DNA of 64,000 bases from Aldrovandia affinis (Eukaryota; Chordata; Actinopteri; Notacanthiformes; Halosauridae). Below, piece after piece: positions 10,579 through 48,878 of the stretch (positions are counted from its first letter, which is position 1; each line of letters begins with the position of its first letter). The stretch lies in the NCBI GenBank assembly GCA_029706075.1, contig JAINUG010000087.1, positions 124,001 through 188,000 of the forward strand, given 5' to 3'. Below the pieces are notes generated by a model that did not search any database, was not told the DNA's origin, and worked only from the letters and a program-made list of their open reading frames with translations. The translations under genes and the position numbers were made by a program.

Positions 10579-13500
10579 TCAATCAATCAATCAATCAATC
10601 TTTATTTTTGTATAGCGCCATTTACAAACAGGTTGTCACACAGCGCTTCACAATTGGCATTTTCCAGAGGGAATCAAAAAACCAGAAAACCATTGGAGCC
10701 AATGTAGGAAACTGGAAAATTATTCCCTGACCCCTTAAAAGGCGGTCGAGATGAACTCCTGGAAAATTGTGGGATACAGAGAAAAACAACACAAATAGTC
10801 CTTGAGGCTCATGTGGCTTAACAGACCACTGGAAGGGCATTCTAAGTGTAGGAGTGGGGTGGACCTCATCCCTCCAGATACCAGGGCAGGGCGGGGGATG
10901 GAACCAGCAGCTAGGGTCTGGGCCAGCGGCATCCGGCTAACACATGGCAGGGGGGGGGGGTTGACTCTGGGGCAGGTGAGCTCCGGGCAGGTGCCGCGAA
11001 GCCGGGGAGAAAAGAGGAAAGGTGCAATTATGACTATGATAAATATCACGCCGGATCAGGGGGAAGAGTAGTGATAACACTTTTGCACCAGCAGAAGTAA
11101 TCTAGGGCAGCATAACTAATTAGGTGAGTGGCACAGGGAGCACGCAGCCATGAGGGCACTCAGAGACCATCCCACCACATCATCAGCAGTCCTGATAGGG
11201 GCGGATCATCACTTATGATTGGTGACAGTAAGGATAGCTCATTGCACTCTATTGCTACGCCCCTCCACATCTGCACCTAATGACTATAAGAGAGACTAAA
11301 GAGATGCGTTTTTAACCTAGACTTGAAAATTGAGACCGTGTCTGACTCCTTCACAGAGATGGGTAGACTGTTCCACAGTAAAGGAGCTCTATAGGAGAAA
11401 GCTCTGCCACCTGCTGTATTTTTGATATTCTAGGGACTACCAAGTTGCCTGCATCTTGTGAGCGAAGTGAACGTGGGGGATTGTACGGATGAAGTAGATC
11501 CGTCAAGTAAGAGGGTGCAAGTCCATGCAACACCTTATAAGTTAAGAGGAGTACCTTATAGTCTACACGATAGTTTATAGGAAGCCAGTGAAGTGACGCT
11601 AACACAGGACTAATGTGCTCATATTTCTTTGTTCTAGTCAGGATTCTTGCAGCAGCATTCTGTACGAGTTGTAGGCTCCTGAGTGAGGCATTGGAACAGC
11701 CAGACAGTAATGCATTGCAATAATCTAATCTAGATGTAACAAAGGCATGTACCAATTTTTCTGCATCTATTAATGACAGGAAGCCCCTAATTTTGGCAAT
11801 ATTAAAAAAAAGAAAAAAGGCTACTCTGGAAATGTTTTTGATGTGACTATCAAATGAGAGACCAGGATCTATAGTAACACCAAGGTCTTTTACCGCCAAA
11901 CTTGCAGCAACAGAGCAACCATCCAGATTAAGAGATAAATCAGATAACCCTCTTCTGAGGTTTTGGGCCCCAAGACCAACATCTCTGTTTTATCAGTATT
12001 CAGCAATAGAAAATTATCTGACATCCAGTCTTTTATGTCTTTAAAACAGGCCTCCAACTGTTCGAATTGTCCTTCGCCAGGTTTCATTGATAGGTATAAT
12101 TGTGTGTCATCTGCGTAGCAGTGAAAATGTACGCCATGTTTACGAATGACATCACCAAGTGGCAACATGTAAAGGGAGAACAATAATGGCCCCAAAACAG
12201 AACCTTGAGGGATACCATATTCCACCTTGATGAGAGCAGAGGGCTCGTCATTTAACTGCACAAATTGATATCTATCTGATAGGTAGGATTTAAACCAGGA
12301 GAGTGCCTGTCCACGCAGTCCAACTAGGTTTTCAAGTCTGCTCAGAAGAGTTTGGTGGTCTATTGTGTCAAACGCAGCACTTAAGTCCAAAAGCACAAGA
12401 ATAGAGACACATCCACAGTCAGCTGATATCAGTAAGTCATTGACAACTTTAATAAGAGCAGTCTCAGTGCTATGGTGTTGCCTAAATCCTGACTGAAAAG
12501 TTTCATAGATGTCATTTGATGTCAGGAACGAAGTCAGTCTCTGAGCTACAGCTTTCTCTAGAATTTTTGAGAGAAAAGAAAGATTAGAAATTGGCCTGTA
12601 GTTACTGAGATTTTCTGGGTCAAGGTTTGGTTTCTTTAAAAGTGGCTTAATTACTGCCACTTTTTGAGAATTTGGCATATAGCCTGATGAAAGAGACAGA
12701 TTAATAATGTCTAGCATGGATTGCCCCATAACAGGAAGAAGTTCTTTAACAAGTTTTGTTGGGATTGGGTCTAATTGACAAGTAGATGGTTTGGAGGACA
12801 TAACCAATTTAGAAAATTCAGTCCACTCCAGAGCACTAAAAACTCAAGAGTAGCCATAGGACCCTGTCCTGGTAAGCCTGTGCTTTCTGATCAGTGTCCG
12901 CTACAGCAGAAGGTGCCATTTTAGAAATTTCATCTCTAATTTTCTCAATCTTCTCAGAGAAAAAGTTCATGAAATCATTACTATTATGGGCTGCCGGAGG
13001 CTTAGCATTGGTTTCAGTCTGGTTCTTTGTCAGTTTGGCCACTGTATCAAAAATAAATTTTGGATTATTCTTATTACGCTCAATCAGATCAGACAAATAG
13101 GTTGACCTTGCGGAGGAGAGAGCATATTTGTACTGTACCAGACTGTCTTTCCAGGCAGAATAAAATACTTCTAATTTAGTGGATCGCCACTTACGTTCCA
13201 ACTTGCGAGAAGCTTGTTTAAGAGCACGTGTGTGGTCAGTATACCATGGTGCAAGCTTCTTTTGGCTAGTTTTTCTTTTTGAGAGGCGCAACAGCATCAA
13301 GTGTGTTGCGCAGGGTGTAATTTAGATTGTCAGTCAGCTGATCAATAGATTGTAGACTAGTGGGATCCTGATTAACAGTAAATGATTCTTGGAACAGGCT
13401 GACAAAGTTAGGTATGGTAGAGGAATTTAGGGAGCGACTAAAGTAGAACACTGGTTTTGATCTAATAGCAGTGGTAGCATGAATTTCAAACGTAATAAGG

Positions 13501-14525
13501 AAATGGTCAGAGAGCACAGGATTATGAGGAGAGACAACTAGATTGCTAATGCTAATACCATAGGATAAAGCTAAGTCCAGTGTATGTTGATGACAATGAG
13601 TCGGCCCAGACACATTTTGGACAAAACCAACGGAGTCAAGAATAGAAGCAAAAGCCTTCACTAGAGAATCATTTCCATTATCAACATGAATATTAAAGTC
13701 GCCTATAATCACAACTTTATCTGCCATAACTGCTAGGTTTGATAAAAAGTCAGAAAACTCTGAGAGGAAAACAGCATAGGGTCCAGGGGGTCTGTAGATA
13801 GTAGCTAGTATAAAAGATAAAGTAAATGCAGATCTATTATCTACATTAGTCTGTATGGAGCCCAGGGAAAGCACTTCAAATGAAGGGAATGTGTTTAAAG
13901 ATTTCTTAGTAAGGCGTAGTCTAGTGTCAAAAATAACAGCCACACCGCCACCTCTGCCTGACTGTCGAGGGTTGTGACAACTAGAGTATCCAACTGGGGT
14001 AGATGCATTTAATGCTATGTACTCATCAGGTCTAAGCCAAGTCTCCGTCAAACTTAAAATGTCAAGTTTATAATCAGTGATCAGTTCGTTCACAAGGGCA
14101 GCTTTAGGAGCTAGTGATCTTATATTTAGCAACCCAATTTTAAGGAGAGTTCTATCGAAATTAGGTTTAGCATTTGCATTACGATGGTTCGTGTTGATCC
14201 TTATCAGATTATTAGAAAAAATCCCACGGGGAGGTTTGAGTTTCAATAGACTACGGTTTTCTCTACGTGGAACAGACACAGTCTCAATTATGTGGGAACT
14301 GGGGTGGAAACTAGTCACGAGTTCAGGGAAACTTGCAGACAGTTGTTTAAGACCGTCTGTCTGCTGCCTGGCTGTAGCTCTTGAATGTCAATTTCGCCGA
14401 TTCAGACTATGGCCTATGTTATTAGATAACAGAAGAGCACCCCTCCAGCTCGGGTGGAGTCCGTCTCTCTTCAGTAAACCAGGCTCTCCCCAAAACGTAG
14501 GCCAATTATTAATAAACCCTATTTG
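10579..14525 (-). mobile_element. L2-like LINE retrotransposon, copy A (5'-truncated, frameshifted)
   Basis: This is a non-LTR element reading right to left. At 14,380-14,520 lies the end of ORF1, with a DGLHPSWRG motif like the C-terminal Asp-x-x-His of SGNH esterase domains in CR1/L2 ORF1. ORF2 follows: an AP-type endonuclease (LLNIRSLAPK, LTETWL, SGRGGGVAVI, GDFNIHVDN, SDHFLITFE; 13,266-14,318), then reverse transcriptase with [16 protein letters not shown] and [10 protein letters not shown] (about 12,090-12,250) and a typical C-terminus at 11,351-11,899. The 3' end is a UTR ending in (ATCA)n at about 10,579. A one-base deletion near 11,963, other indels and truncation inside ORF1 make it inactive. 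It is near-identical to copy B. Confidence 0.93.
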
Positions 14526-16265
14526 ATGAATTGTATAAATTGAACTTAGAAATTTGGTAGAAATGTCATTTTTATTGATTTAATTGTGAAAACCTTCAAG
14601 AAAAACTTGTAAAAATACTCTTTAGAGAAGGGAAGGAAACAATCTTAACAGGTTAATATAATACTTCTTACTACGGTGTATTACTATGTTTCGGTAGTGA
14701 CAATTTTGGGGAGAGGAAAAACATTCCAAAAGAGTCTGAAAATACAATATAAAAATTGACGGTACTTTTACTAGATATATGTACTTTAGATATGGTACAA
14801 TATATATAGGGACAGTTTTGGGAATAAAACATACAAAATTTCAAAATATTTCCAACCTGACTTTGAACCAATTCGGTAGAATGGCCCATATAGGAGATTT
14901 AGGGACCTCTAGCAGAACAAACAGATATTCCTCATTGTCCCATGAGTGAATGGGAAATCACAAGTCACATATAAATATAAAAAATAAAGACAAATGGGTC
15001 CGTAAGTTACACAATCATTCTCATTATACATCTCCATACCCCACACATTCAAATTACTCCAAATCGCAAATATGATGAGAGTCATTGTCAAATAACGTAC
15101 AAAGACAAACTACACAACAAAATAACCCAGACTAACTTCGAACGTCTTTTCTGGCCAGGCTTCGACATTAAGACAATTAAATAAACATGAATATTGACTT
15201 GGAAGGTCTTTATTTTTGAACGCAATGCTAGTGAAGCAGCAAGTTTTGGTTGCAAGCAAGGAGACAAAAACTAACTTTTTGATAGAGAGAAAATTATCTA
15301 AACGGCACGTGTCACCTACAGTTCAGCACCAAACCTACTAACGAATATTATGTCTAGCTATCTATCTAATTACCTAAGTTTATGCAATAAACGTGTGAAC
15401 CTAAACTTTTTATTGGGAACTGAATCGAATAAAAATAGATCATAGAGCGAGTCAACTAGCACTGTTTGACATTAGAAGCAACATAGCTACGGTTAGCATA
15501 TTTTCTTATGATTCGTGTTTATGATTAGATAAATTGGTTAACTTCACTGTCATGGCTAACCAGTTGAGTCGTTAACATTAGCTTTATATCATTCCGTTTT
15601 TAATAACTAGCTAGCTAGCTAAGTTAGCTTGCAAGCCAGATAATAGCATTATAGCTATTGTATAGCATATTATATAGCCTAGTTATTATATAGCCATATA
15701 GCTACTATGTTTAAAACGTGTGCTCCTCTCCAACCAGTTAGTCAATCGGACTTTAATGAGGGCAAGTGGTAGCCTAGATAACGATCCCGGCCCTTGTCAC
15801 AGAACCATTAACGCATTAGCGATAAGTCTTCCCGTATTTCTGTATCCACACGTATTTTGGAGGACACGTGTGCTAGTAGGCTATATGTGAATTTGCCGCG
15901 ATTGGACGGACCTACAATTTCTTCCTTCATTTAAGCAACACAGTAACACATATATTCTTAAGCAACATAGTAATATTATGAAATCTCCTAAATTGAAAAT
16001 CAAATTAAAAGTAATAAAATAAAGACTGCTAGTATGTGATGATTCACGTTTATTTTGTACATTATTAAACATGTGTATCTATAATTAGGCTAATCCACGA
16101 GCAAAATACAACAAGACGGACAGGAGCACCAAAACACCATTATAATTCAGAACCTTATGCCAGCATAGGCGAATGTGACATCACAGAGGATGCCATTCCA
16201 GTGTTTCTCAGAATTACATAAATAAAGACAATTCAGTAAACACCACATTCTGAACATTTCTTCAG
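14526..16265. promoter_or_regulatory. Intergenic, with a TAGCTAGC/TTAGC motif cluster upstream of the minisatellite gene
   Basis: AT-rich and without recognisable genes. Between about 15,330 and 15,720 there is a dense run of AGCTAGCTAGC, GTTAGC and TAGCTA words like those preceding the 4.2-kb ORF. Because this cluster lies about 0.6-1 kb upstream of the next gene candidate it may mark a promoter; that is inference. Confidence 0.35.
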
Positions 16266-16323
16266 AGTTTACTGGATTAATAGACTTATCGAGGCCTATT
16301 GAGGGCCAACCGCAGAGATCGCG

Positions 16324-17954
16324 ATGTATATGGCAAGACAAACGCAGAGACCGCAAGGTTTATCGCAAAACAACCGAAGACATCGCAACAACCGCAATGG
16401 ATACGTTAACAGCCGCAGAGAATGCAGTGGCTATAGCAACAACCGCAGAGAATGCGGTGGACATATCAACAACTCCAGAGAGCGTGGTGGATATAGTAAT
16501 AACCCCAGAGGCAGCGATGGATATCGCAACACAATCGCAGAGGCGATGGATGTGGGAACAACCACACAGACCGCGATGGATATCGCAACAACTTTAGAAA
16601 CTGCAGGGACAGCCATGGATGTGTATCGCAACCGACGCAGACACCTCGATGGATGTCGGAACAAGCGCCGAAACCATGATGGACCTTGCAAAACAATGGC
16701 AGAGACCGCGATGGATATCGCAACTGCAGAGACAGCAATGGATATTGCAGAAGAGACAGCGATGGATACTGCAGCAGAGACAGCGATGGATACTGCAGCA
16801 GAGACAGCGATGGATACTGCAGCAGAGACAGCGATGGATACTGCAGCAAAGACAGCGATGGATACTGCAGCAGAGACAGCGATGGATACTGCAGCAGAGA
16901 CAGCGATGGATACTGCAGCAGAGACAGCGATGGATATCCCAACAGCAGAGACCGCGATGGATATCCCAACAGCAGACACCGCGATGGATATCCCAACAGC
17001 AGACACCACGATGGATACTGCAGCAGAGACAGCGATGGATACTGCAGCAGAGACAGCGATGAATACTGCAGCAGAGACAGCGATGGATACTGCAGCAGAG
17101 ACAGCGATGGATACTGCAGCAGAGACAGCGATGGATACTGCAGCAGAGACAGCGATGGATATCCCAACAGCAGACACCGCGATGGATATCCCAACATCCA
17201 CAGAGACCGCGATGGATATCGCAAACCAACAGCAGAGACAGCGATGGATATATATCGCAAAATTCGCAGAGGTCGCGACGGATGTCACGACAACTGCAGA
17301 GACAGCGATGGATATCGCAACATCTGCAGGGTCTGTGAATCCCCAGCTGGACGTGGTGGAGCCAAGGATACAGGATGGAGTAAGTGCTGCACTGTGCACA
17401 ATGCGCTAAAAGCCAGTCCAATGTTGTTCCCAACAATTCAGCACTTTTCACTGCACGGTGAAGAGAACATAAAAAAAATATTGATAAAAAGTTGTTTTGA
17501 AAAATAAGAATTGTTTGTATTTGTGGAAATTTTTGTGGAAAGACGTTTTTTTCCCCAATATGAAGGCAGTGCTTATTCAGATGTCTTGTACAATGTGTGA
17601 TTGCAGTATATTGTGGAGAACATTGAGATTCCACTGGACAATGCTAAAGGCGACAACCATCAGCTGGAGGACCTGCCACAGAGTGAGTCACAGATAATGT
17701 GCTCTGAATGGACAGTGTTGAAAATGCTCTTTTCCTATTACATTCAGTGGGTAAAAATTCATACTCAATTAGTATCTCCCAACACAGAGATATCTAGAAA
17801 GCCTGTGTTAAATGGAGTCTCTCCATTGTCTTTTTCAGAGGTCAAAAAGTCAAAGACAGGAATCCGGCGTTTCTTCAGCCGCGTGTGGAAGACCCTGAAG
17901 AAAAGCGCCCTCTGCTGCTGCTGCTGCTGCTGCCTCTCCGTGGAGACGGATTAA
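16324..17954 (+). CDS. Three-exon candidate gene: ETAMDTAA-repeat protein with basic Cys-rich tail
   Basis: Proposed exons are 16,324-17,379, 17,607-17,682 and 17,839-17,954. Exon 1 ends at GGA|GTAAGT in phase 0. Exon 2 follows tgtgattgcag and begins TAT in the matching frame (YIVENIEIPLDN...), ending CAGA|GTGAGT in phase 1. Exon 3 follows tctttttcag and restores the frame (VKKSKTGIRRFFSRVWK...), ending TAA after a run of seven cysteines. The total is 1,248 nt, 415 aa. A candidate acceptor for the 5' side of exon 1 lies at 16,265 (catttcttcag). Most of exon 1 encodes the octapeptide ETAMDTAA or nonapeptide ETAMDIPTA. The tail has an amphipathic basic helix (RRFFSRVWKTLKKS) and then CCCCCCC, which might be membrane-associated or S-acylated. 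Tails of this basic/Cys type occur beside some fish pim-like kinases, but no kinase domain is present. Three consecutive phase-consistent junctions support a real gene. The start codon is uncertain because the first 250 bp shift frame relative to the repeat. Confidence 0.45.
16340..17320. repeat. 24/27-bp coding-type minisatellite with very long open frames on both strands
   Basis: The core unit is a 24-mer, GAGACAGCGATGGATACTGC plus AGCA, present about 14 times in two blocks (about 16,755-16,935 and 17,005-17,160). A 27-mer variant (GATGGATATCCCAACAGCAG plus ACACCGC) lies between and after them. More degenerate units extend to both sides. The length is a multiple of three and the unit has no stop in any of the six frames, giving long open frames on both strands (for example 16,324-17,409 on plus and 16,431-17,399 on minus). 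Confidence 0.95.
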
Positions 17955-18255: not shown

Positions 18256-20140
18256 TAAGCACTGGAATGTAAAACATAGCAGATATCGTATCTTTATTGG
18301 TACATGCAGTAGGATGATTCATAGGCAGCCAGACAGTTTTCACCATGACCTGCACAGGTTCCACCACCTTTCCCCATGTTTATGATTACAGAGTGATTTC
18401 TGCACAGCAACCAATGATGAGAAGGCAAAAAAACATGACTGACAGACTTGGCCAGGAAGAAATACGGAAAAGTCATCGACAAATCCATACCGGTGTGTGT
18501 GTGTGTGTGTGTGTGAGGGAGATGTGCTCTGTTGCCATCGCAGTTTTTTTGTGTTTCCCAGCATTTGTCAGTCTCTACACTTGTCAAATCACTTGGAGGA
18601 ACTTTGTAATTATGCACAGCAACTGCAGAGAGAATGCAGCATAACGGAAAGAGAAAAATATACTTTGTTGATACTAACTTTCATTTCTGGGGAACCTAAA
18701 AAAAATAAGTGCGTTCCTGGCAGTCATAAGTAGTTTTTTATACGATATGGTATGACCAGTATATTTTGCTGTTGTTGTGTGTTACAGTGATTAGCGATGA
18801 AAAGCATGGAGTGCGGTCATGTCACCTCCACATCCACGTTTTCGGGAGGCAGGCAGCTGACGTGGCCCCAGGCTAGAAGAGGGCTTTCCTGGGAGGACCA
18901 CAGTCCCAGCAATAACACACATAAATAAATACACACACACACACACACACACACTCCAACAACACTTATTCAGGACAACATTAATCTCATCACACAGATT
19001 GTATTTTGTATTGTTGATTGTATTTTGTGTTTATTATAAAAAAGCGGATTTGCTCTTAAGGTTAACCTTTGTTGCCGCTAGGGGACAGAGAGGGAATTTC
19101 CCATTTTTTCCCCGTCTAGCTTCGACAAGCTTGTTAAAAAGCGAACCGATTATGAAATTTGGCATTATATCGAGCTGACGTGAGGTTTTTGGTGGTTTTT
19201 CGCCCTCTCAAGAGCAAATTAACTTAAGTCCTTAAGTCCTATTTTAATTGTTAAAGTGTATAAACATTGACCCTAATAAATTATATTTACTGCATGTATT
19301 TTAGAATTATATATTTGAAAGTATTTATTTTGGTGTACTTAAGCATATATCCTACCAGTGAGTGCATTGCAACCGATGTACAATAACACAACAATAAATG
19401 GTATTTAGTTTGGTACTGCTAAAACTTTGCAACCAAGAATAAACATAGGAATCAAAGGGTTCAATGAAACTTTCAATTGAATTCATTTTCAATTTTTCTC
19501 AGATGAAAAGATCATATTGTTACTGTCATGTCAAATATTTTATGTTTATTACTAAAACATGAATGCTAGCCTACGGGAGTGTAATCCTTCAATAATTATA
19601 GCTGAAATACATGATGGGTTCTATAATAAGATAGGCTGTGTGTCCCTCAAGCTCAACACAACACTAGAGATATATGATAATGGTTCACTAAAGTCTCACA
19701 CAATGGATGCATGCAGACACAATGGATGCATGTAACTGCAGTACCGATACTCGCATAGAATGAAATTGTGCCCAGTTCAGTCGATCTCCGGAGGTTTTTT
19801 CATCTCTTCTTGGATATTGAAAGAAGTCCAGATTAAGTCAAATTGCCTCTCTTGAAAGTACAGACCCAACTGGAAATGGACTGTCCACACAAAAAGATAG
19901 CAGGCAAGGATCCCAACAGGAATAACACTGGCAGAGATGCAGTGTATTGAATGTTTTGATCAAACACAGTAGAAAAGAGCAGTTAGGGGCATGCAGGTAA
20001 CTTTGAGTATCTTGTGCATGAGTCCACTGCCTACACAGCTCATTTGCATATAATTCATACTGGCGAATAACATGAGAGAAGAACCAGTTACCCAGAGAGA
20101 GGAGGGGGGCTATCATGCACTGTGCACTGGCTGTCACATA
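18256..20140. other. Intergenic with (TG)n and (CA)n tracts
   Basis: There is a (TG)n tract at about 18,493-18,514 and a (CA)n tract at 18,931-18,953. The frames overlapping them are repeat artefacts. The remainder is AT-rich and no gene is recognised. Confidence 0.45.
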
Positions 20141-20960: not shown

Positions 20961-23900
20961 ATCAATCAATCAATCAATCTTTATTTTTGTATAGCGCCAT
21001 TTACAAACAGGTTGTCACACAGCGCTTCACAATTGGCATTTTCCAGAGGGAATCAAAAAACCAGAAAACCATTGGAGCCAATGTAGGAAACTGGAAAATT
21101 ATTCCCTGACCCCTTAAAAGGCGGTCGAGATGAACTCCTGGAAAATTGTGGGATACAGAGAAAAACAACACAAATAGTCCTTGAGGCTCATGTGGCTTAA
21201 CAGACCACTGGAAGGGCATTCTAAGTGTAGGAGTGGGGTGGACCTCATCCCTCCAGATACCAGGGCAGGGCGGGGGGGGGTATGGAACCAGCAGCTAGGG
21301 TCTGGGCCAGCGGCATCCGGCTAACGCATGGCAGGGGTGGGGGGTTGACTCTGGGGCAGGTGAGCTCCGGGCAGGTGCCACGAAGCCGGGAGAAAAGAGG
21401 AAAGGTGCAATTATGACTATGATAAATATCACGCCGGATCAGGGGAAGAGTAGTGATAACACTTTTGCACCAGCAGAAGTAATCTAGGGCAGCATAACTA
21501 ATTAGGTGAGTGGCACAGGAGCACGCAGCCATGAGGGCACTCAGAGACCATCCCACCACATCATCAGCAGTCCTGATAGGGCGGATCATCACTTATGATT
21601 GGTGACAGTAAGGATAGCTCATTGCACCAGAAGGCTCTATTGCTACGCCCCCTGCCACATCTGCACCTAATGACTATAAGAGAGACTAAAGAGATGCGTT
21701 TTTAACCTAGACTTGAAAATTGAGACCGTGTCTGACTCCTTCACAGAGATGGGTAGACTGTTCCACAGTAAAGGAGCTCTATAGGAGAAAGCTCTGCCAC
21801 CTGCTGTATTTTTGATATTCTAGGGACTACCAAGTTGCCTGCATCTTGTGAGCGAAGTGAACGTGGGGGATTGTACGGATGAAGTAGATCCGTCAAGTAA
21901 GAGGGTGCAGGTCCATGCAACACCTTATAAGTTAAGAGGAGTACCTTATAGTCTACACGATAGTTTATAGGAAGCCAGTGAAGTGACGCTAACACAGGAC
22001 TAATGTGCTCATATTTCTTTGTTCTAGTCAGGATCCTTGCAGCAGCATTCTGTACGAGTTGTAGGCTCCTGAGTGAGGCATTGGAACAGCCAGACAGTAA
22101 TGCATTGCAATAATCTAATCTAGATGTAACAAAGGCATATACCAATTTTTCTGCATCTATTAATGACAGGAAGCCCCTAATTTTGGCAATATTCCTCAGG
22201 TGAAAAAAGGCTACTCTGGAAATGTTTTTGATGTGACTATCAAATGAGAGACCAGGATCTATAGTAACACCAAGGTCTTTTACCGCCAAACTTGCAGCAA
22301 CAGAGCAACCATCCAGATTAAGAGATAAATCAGATAACCCTCTTCTGAGGTTTTTGGGCCCCAAGACCAACATCTCTGTTTTATCAGTATTCAGCAATAG
22401 AAAATTATCTGACATCCAGTCTTTTATGTCTTTAAAACAGGCCTCCAACTGTTCGAATTGTCCTTTGCCAGGTTTCATTGATAGGTATAATTGTGTGTCA
22501 TCTGCGTAGCAGTGAAAATGTACGCCATGTTTACGAATGACATCACCCAAGTGGCAACATGTAAAGGGAGAACAATAATGGCCCCAAAACAGAACCTTGA
22601 GGGATACCATATTCCACCTTGATGAGAGCAGAGGGCTCGTCATTTAACTGCACAAATTGATATCTATCTGATAGGTAGGATTTAAACCAGGAGAGTGCCT
22701 GTCCACGCAGTCCAACTAGGTTTTCAAGTCTGCTCAGAAGAGTTTGGTGGTCTATTGTGTCAAACGCAGCACTTAAGTCCAAAAGCACAAGAATAGAGAC
22801 ACATCCACAGTCAGCTGATATCAGTAAGTCATTGACAACTTTAATAAGAGCAGTCTCAGTGCTATGGTGTTGCCTAAATCCTGACTGAAAAGTTTCATAG
22901 ATGTCATTTGATGTCAGGAACGAAGTCAGTCTCTGAGCTACAGCTTTCTCTAGAATTTTGAGAGAAAAGAAAGATTAGAAATTGGCCTGTAGTTACTGAG
23001 ATTTTCTGGGTCAAGGTTTGGTTTCTTTAAAAGTGGCTTAATTACTGCCACTTTTTGAGAATTTGGCATATAGCCTGATGAAAGAGACAGATTAATAATG
23101 TCTAGCATGGATTGCCCCATAACAGGAAGAAGTTCTTTAACAAGTTTTGTTGGGATTGGGTCTAATTGACAAGTAGATGGTTTGGAGGACATAACCAATT
23201 TAGAAAATTCAGTCCACTCCAGAGCACAAAAAAAAACTCAAGAGTAGCCATAGGACCCTGTCCTGGTAAGCCTGTGCTTTCTGATCAGTGTCCGCTACAG
23301 CAGAAGGTGCCATTTTAGAAATTTCATCTCTAATTTTCTCAATCTTCTCAGAGAAAAGGTTCATGAAATCATTACTATTATGGGCTGCCGGAGGCTTAGC
23401 ATTGGTTTCAGTCTGGTTCTTTGTCAGTTTGGCCACTGTATCAAAAATAAATTTTGGATTATTCTTATTACGCTCAATCAGATCAGACAAATAGGTTGAC
23501 CTTGCGGAGGAGAGAGCATATTTGTACTGTACCAGACTGACTTTCCAGGCAGAATAAAATACTTCTAATTTAGTGGATCGCCACTTACGTTCCAACTTGC
23601 AAGAAGCTTGTTTAAGGGCACGTGTGTGGTCAGTATACCATGGTGCAAGCTTCTTTTGGCTAGTTTTTTTTTGAGAGGCGCAACAGCATCAAGTGTGTTG
23701 CGCAGGGTGTAATTTAGATTGTCAGTCAGCTGATCAATAGATTGTAGACTAGTGGGATCCTGATTAACAGTAAATGATTCTTGGAACAGGCTGACAAAGT
23801 TAGGTATGGTAGAGGAATTTAGGGAGCGACTAAAGTAGAACACTGGTTTTGATCTAATAGCAGTGGTAGCATGAATTTCAAACGTAATAAGGAAATGGTC

Positions 23901-24337
23901 AGAGAGCACAGGATTATGAGGAGAGACAACTAGATTGCTAATGCTAATACCATAGGATAAAGCTAAGTCCAGTGTATGTTGATGACAATGAGTCGGCCCA
24001 GACACATTTTGGACAAAACCAACGGAGTCAAGAATAGAAGCAAAAGCCTTCACTAGAGAATCATTTCCATTATCAACATGAATATTAAAGTCGCCTATAA
24101 TCACAACTTTATCTGCCATAACTGCTAGGTTTGATAAAAAGTCAGAAAACTCTGAGAGGAAAACAGCATAGGGTCCAGGGGGTCTGTAGATAGTAGCTAG
24201 TATAAAAGATAAAGTAAATGCAGATCTATTATCTACATTAGTCTGTATGGAGCCCAGGGAAAGCACTTCAAATGAAGGGAATGTGTTTAAAGATTTCTTA
24301 GTAAGGCGTAGTCTAGTGTCAAAAATAACAGCCACAC
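20961..24337 (-). mobile_element. L2-like LINE retrotransposon, copy B (5'-truncated, frameshifted)
   Basis: Nearly the same sequence as copy A and in the same orientation, from the 3' (ATCA)n end at about 20,961 to an abrupt 5' truncation at about 24,337 inside the endonuclease, where the shared GCCACAC is followed by unrelated (CA)/(TA) sequence. Endonuclease (23,565-24,341) and reverse transcriptase blocks (22,543-23,198; [10 protein letters not shown] in 21,741-22,643) are present. Its damage differs from copy A: an extra C near 22,545, a lost T near 22,958 and an A-run expansion near 23,227 break frames intact in A, while the frame lost in A near 11,963 is intact here. It is inactive. 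Confidence 0.93.
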
Positions 24338-24346
24338 ACATATATA

Positions 24347-24390
24347 TGCCATTTAGCAGACGCTTTTATCCAAAGCGACTTACAGTAGTG
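24347..24390 (-). mobile_element. SINE tail fragment
   Basis: ATTTAGCAGACGCTTTTATC and the following CAAAGCGACTTACAGTA are the reverse complement of the SINE tail seen at 26,530 and 45,430. Only the tail is present, immediately beside the truncated LINE end. Confidence 0.6.

Positions 24391-27638: not shown

Positions 27639-48878
<21,240 letters not shown>

Follow-up and report, generated by a model that had tools for sequence, protein, structure and literature searches.

Human NPIP (morpheus) consists of segmentally duplicated paralogs in which a coding exon holds two repeat types in up to 39 copies; one repeat type is read in two frames, and coding repeats do not occur in every copy (PMC2812944). 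NPIP appears to be the closest analogue, and an analogue only, of the locus described here, with which it shares recently amplified paralogs and copy-variable minisatellite repeats in a coding exon. The locus lies in a 64-kb stretch of DNA (the window; contig C2433, positions 124,001-188,000) of a fish genome, and the assembly searched for relatives comprised 1.22 Gb in 2576 contigs. Overall, the locus is probably an N-domain-less, recently amplified member of an apparently undescribed multigene family. Complete members consist of an N-domain of approximately 160 aa, a minisatellite-coded repeat whose type differs from member to member, and a C-terminal tail formed by a basic amphipathic helix and a cluster of cysteines. 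The fish family differs from NPIP in that its repeat precedes a basic, Cys-rich C-terminal tail and in that two complete members (L029 and L039) are intronless after the N-domain start. Pfam, which presumably includes an NPIP model, gave no NPIP match in scans of the tail and the N-domain.

Proteins with a C-terminal polybasic stretch and a palmitoylated Cys cluster form a general class that the family resembles in having a basic amphipathic helix followed by a Cys run near the C-terminus, with acylation putative here. The tail differs from this class in having no sequence relative in PDB or Pfam. The N-domain has none in either database. The earlier note on this DNA knew of no such family, and among the papers listed by full-text literature searches, which cannot match sequences, none described a fish family of this kind. 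A further parallel may be drawn with Ala/Thr-rich repeat proteins such as fish type I antifreeze, in which short Ala/Thr-rich repeats are likewise coded by a fast-changing array. The family departs from these in its repeat units, which are 8 or 10 residues long and contain acidic residues, in its membrane-type tail and in the Pro-rich repeats of sister members.

The locus is on the plus strand. Putative exon 1 (16,324-17,379; 352 codons), as the earlier note had drawn it, begins at the first ATG and ends at the donor. Its frame is already open at 16,303, and 415 codons lie between the ATG at 16,324 and the TAA stop at 17,952-17,954. Most of exon 1 is a minisatellite array. Its core (16,699-17,161) was found by Tandem Repeats Finder as 18.8 copies of the 24-bp unit GCAGAGACAGCGATGGATACTGCA, encoding AETAMDTA. 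A degenerate left part (16,303-16,698) has units of approximately 30 bp with frame slips and begins at the position of the exon-0-like sequence in N-domain paralogs, and a right part (17,143-17,329) also has units of approximately 30 bp, encoding AETAMDIPTS. The exon ends in a unique stretch (17,330-17,379; NPQLDVVEPRIQDG) that is kept in paralogs and leaves the array through LDVVEPRIQDG into the GTAAGT donor at 17,380, an exit that was present as claimed. Intron 1 (17,380-17,606; GTAAGT...TTGCAG) is followed by exon 2 (17,607-17,682), entered in phase 0 and left in phase 1, by intron 2 (17,683-17,838; GTGAGT...TTTTTCAG), which is unusually conserved among paralogs, and by exon 3 (17,839-17,954), which encodes the basic amphipathic helix, seven Cys and LSVETD before the TAA stop. 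The donor, exon limits, phases and length reported previously were all re-found in the sequence. The first plus-strand AATAAA past the stop, a possible poly(A) signal, is at 18,924-18,929. Upstream, a stretch common to N-domain-bearing paralogs (16,165-16,270) may be a promoter or leader, and smaller shared pieces are found at 15,314-15,410 and 15,518-15,666.

The array had been described as open in all six frames, which holds for the 24-bp unit, with no stop in any frame; over the full exon-1 stretch, all frames but one contain stops (counts over the six frames of 0, 3, 6, 2, 1 and 3). Six-frame openness was rejected as evidence of coding since it is frequent by chance, being expected in 14% of random 24-mers at 54% G+C; the figures for 30-mers and G+C-rich 36-mers were 5% and 17%. 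The 36-bp unit and the unit of L041 each carry a stop in one frame. Frame slippage at the left end of the array was real, with unit lengths of 29, 34 and 32 against 24, 27 and 30; the slips fall outside simple runs, and over part of exon 1 the reading frame departs from that of the array itself. Six close paralogs carry 18.8, 16.8, 17.8, 10.8, 16.8 and 14.8 copies of the 24-bp unit (the value of 10.8, for L012a, was taken from the third-ranked repeat row), and this range of 10.8-18.8 among close paralogs indicates that the array changes quickly, as had been suggested.

Splice sites and codons within the window were scored with splice matrices and a codon table. The donors scored fairly (2.2 and 2.7 bits), the second acceptor strongly (6.1 bits) and the first weakly (-1.6 bits), and the chain drawn previously was the best two-intron chain available from the exon-1 frame. 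Of 3000 random open starts in the window, 15 gave a chain with an equal or higher score, and 537 gave any chain at all. By codon use, exon 2 ranked within the highest 0.8% of 75-nt open stretches and exon 3 within the highest 4.5% of those of 111 nt; a different plus frame of exon 3 outscored the one drawn (16.4 vs 8.2 bits) because of a CTG run. The window sequence on its own thus gave moderate evidence against chance junctions.

The genome search showed that the same exons, mostly with the same splice sites and frame and with a conserved basic amphipathic helix and Cys cluster, recur in many paralogs, which bears out the claim that three consistent junctions are unlikely by chance. The DNA of exons 2 and 3 gave 43 matches and the 63-aa tail gave 93 at E ≤ 10. 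Of these, 53 were listed as matches to exon 3, spread over 30 contigs, and 47 of the 53 had E ≤ 10−3; the other 40 tail matches were exon-2, duplicate or weaker and were left out of the exon-3 list. Tandem copies are spaced 6-12 kb apart on C632, C524 and C2365 and mostly approximately 2 kb or less on C2067, and other copies are dispersed through the genome. At least eight are near-identical and recent (the window copy, four on C632, two on C524 and one on C1810). In the aligned rows, which include the window and omit one offset L019 alignment, donor 1 was GTAAGT in 21 of 22, AG preceded exon 2 in 23 of 29 and GT was present at donor 2 in 27 of 29. The exceptions at exon 2 are L018, where the AG is lost, and three L028 rows and two L036 rows, where the start of the exon is non-homologous. 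The Cys run of intact copies differs by whole codons. This comparison supports exons 2 and 3 as inherited gene structure, and the array as part of the same gene is likewise supported. The splice junctions are therefore credible because they are inherited; the long frame by itself said little.

No spliced retrocopy that could have served as proof of splicing was found, as 0 of 82 genome matches cross a junction, and 154 pattern matches in viral contigs included no relative. In the 3.5 kb fetched around a copy of the N-domain-less lineage on C1380, exons 2 and 3 were not found. At one further locus (L035), a tail-like frame comes after a frame that looks piggyBac-transposase-like.

A search with the N-domain gave 27 matches, of which 12 were near full length and stop-free. 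The frame from N-domain to tail was unbroken at seven of these 12 loci. Two of the seven are single frames: L029 encodes 493 aa, with the N-domain, repeats of the GLPEGPSRPAVA type and then QGIRRFFCRTWKALKRSTFCCCCVSMETD, and L039 encodes 365 aa with ETAMDIATSA repeats. The other five (L019, L022, L025, L037 and L045) combine the N-domain with a short ETAMD repeat, a donor and exons 2 and 3; an insertion is carried in intron 2 of L045. In most fetched copies of the ETAMD type, too, the tail is divided between exon 2 and exon 3, which follow a GTAAGT and a GTGAGT donor, respectively. At the five incomplete loci, the frame was shifted in L020 and L021, stopped short of the tail in L040 and L041 and stopped within the array in L042; the repeats are VEDILDGAA in L041 and GLPEGPSRPAVA in L040 and L042. 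The N-domain itself was broken in L024, L026 and L043.

Between subfamilies, dN/dS of the N-domain was 0.45-0.75, with Fisher p values of 0.0004 (L039/L040), 0.03 (L037/L039) and 0.08 (L037/L029) for pairs that are not independent; within subfamilies it was 0.31-1.90 or undefined, on few differences. An acceptor 13 bases ahead of the N-domain ATG was kept in the seven loci printed. The AlphaFold2 model of the N-domain was poor (pLDDT 44.8) and all helical. Overall, the family is very probably protein-coding.

The window copy is a derivative and not a full member of this family. It has the tail exons, the helix and Cys cluster, the adjoining minisatellite and the upstream sequence; the N-domain is absent across the 64-kb window, without a match on contig C2433, and is absent also from L009-L018. 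The upstream stretch at 16,165-16,270 is 86% identical to DNA of C2365 approximately 2.7 kb before its N-domain, and 85-86% identical in C2365, C1189, C2123 and related copies. The alignments continue into the exon-0-like stretch, where the window lineage turns to the array at approximately 16,303. Similar fusions of upstream sequence and array, with 78-93% identity in pieces, occur on C1380, on C2433 at 1.2 Mb, on C524 at 0.65 Mb and on C2067. Since the N-domain is present in both intron-bearing and intronless subfamilies, its absence here would reflect loss in an old lineage that was later amplified. The loss may have occurred by deletion or unequal exchange. In the window lineage, the array lies directly behind the family upstream region, within what aligns with the exon-0-like stretch, and the N-domain and its acceptor are missing. 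Transcripts of the window copy may still splice as drawn.

The best-placed alternative takes the window copy as a working gene for a 415-aa protein of ETAMDTAA repeats with a lipid-anchored tail, and we consider it unlikely. The open frame, the three consistent junctions with their seldom-equalled chain score and the conservation of the tail exons among paralogs all speak for it, and one close copy (L012b) keeps the ATG frame and the tail too. The N-domain-less lineage is also old, judging from the identity of its upstream pieces, yet tails such as that of L014 are open. Against a working gene, the first-ATG frame reached the donor in three of seven N-domain-less copies with complete arrays (six recent copies plus L014), approximately as expected by chance, and exons 2 and 3 were both unbroken in four of the eight recent copies. 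Tail pN/pS was 0.81 for six copies, two of which (L017 and L018) have broken splice sites, and 0.87 for the four with intact splice sites, so that no clear purifying selection on the tail exons was seen. These values leave out L027, in which exon 2 had been paired with exon 3 of the next tandem copy because exon 3 of the first copy has a stop, L028, whose exon-2 start is non-homologous, and L038, which was misframed. The missing N-domain and the reading of exon 1 partly out of the array's own frame count against a working gene as well. The earlier claim of a spliced coding exon with a 415-aa product is therefore supported for splicing as an inherited structure and is not supported for the product of the window copy. 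Most repeat units of the window array offer an in-frame ATG, so a product could still be made from this copy; that it makes a protein that matters is doubtful.

Assembly errors in tandem repeats could instead account for the slipped frames and broken tails seen in close copies, in which case more copies would be intact than were counted. Such errors would fit C632, a 20-kb contig with four close copies, and the defects themselves, several of which are of 1-2 nt and some of which lie beside a (TGC)n run. Similar defects were found on large contigs, however (in the tail on C524 and as exon-1 slips on C1810 and C524), and the slips of the window array are not in simple runs, so we regard this explanation as decidedly improbable. 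Finally, we consider it very unlikely that the family is non-coding, a mobile or tandem repeat with frames left open by chance in arrays poor in stops. Such a repeat would fit the dozens of dispersed and tandem copies, many of them broken, the arrays open in several frames and a 3' flank conserved past a stop as in dispersed repeats. Against it, the N-domain is non-repetitive and stop-free at 12 loci with the between-subfamily dN/dS given above, exon boundaries and splice sites have been preserved, and the amphipathic helix is retained where the repeats before it are unrelated.

Within the preferred reading of an N-domain-less member of a coding family, the tail is retained by the window copy. 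The hydrophobic moment of its helix (TGIRRFFSRVWKTLKKSA), the top-scoring 18-mer of the 74-aa tail and selected as such before ranking, was matched by 0.03% of 51,543 open 18-mers in the window, and the moment was 0.58-0.85 in six subfamily tails. Composition and helix moment suggest that the tail may be an inner-membrane anchor made of a basic helix and acylated cysteines. In complete members, the tail would hold the N-domain at the membrane on a repeat stalk, and minisatellite turnover would reset the length and chemistry of that stalk. This anchored-stalk mechanism is tentative, and we judge it slightly more likely to be wrong than right. It is less likely still that stalks, as acidic Ala/Thr-rich 8-10-mers or Pro-rich 12-mers, are exchanged between constant ends formed by a helical N-domain and a membrane-anchoring tail, with the window lineage expressing only the anchored stalk from an array that has more than one readable frame.

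A hydrophobic stretch (LYFVLLIIFGVYHQKG) and its variants were observed 3' of exon 3, at 18,999-19,046 in the window and at L039:1411-1458, L017:5202-5249 and L050:615-662. In L039, the one member with a transmembrane end, that end results from its in-frame fusion to the amphipathic helix and seems to be captured 3' flank. This end was considered as proof of anchoring, and the argument was withdrawn because similar DNA is 3' flank elsewhere and conserved past the stop.

Intron 2 was 96.8% identical between the window and L019, with exons and intron 1 at approximately 84-86%. It differed at 5 of 156 sites against 7 of approximately 39 synonymous sites (p 0.003). The frame 17,601-17,954, which spans the intron, is open in the window. 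The intron as retained coding sequence was rejected, as paralogs have stops and indels of 1, 2, 11 and 26 nt in it. An Rfam search of the intron gave no match. Its conservation could reflect a regulatory role or gene conversion.

Other features were also identified in the window. The minus strand at 31,000-64,000 has exons resembling myelin regulatory factor (a match to PDB 7dc3) and a Rabin-8-like gene (PF25555, slightly under the cut-off); gene names in this region are tentative beyond these two matches. A 21-bp minisatellite of 4.5 copies at 35,006-35,099 falls within a frame on the minus strand that resembles, on visual inspection, part of a MYRF exon (SLRCSNA repeats), and may be a second coding minisatellite in the window. 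Another minisatellite, at 45,656-46,008, has 4.4 copies of an 80-bp unit and is probably very recent, since the units match at 98%. LINE-like stretches are present on the minus strand at 11,351-14,387 and 21,741-24,365, with an endonuclease match at 13,266-14,387 and the remainder recognised by eye, and UnaL2 3' elements occur at four places.

With these results, an odd repeat becomes a family of dozens of paralogs, many with the same tail exons and some with differing arrays between the same ends. The family provides a natural series for the replacement of coding minisatellites and the tolerance of frame slips in stop-poor units, and for asking whether a membrane-tethered repeat survives without its original domain.
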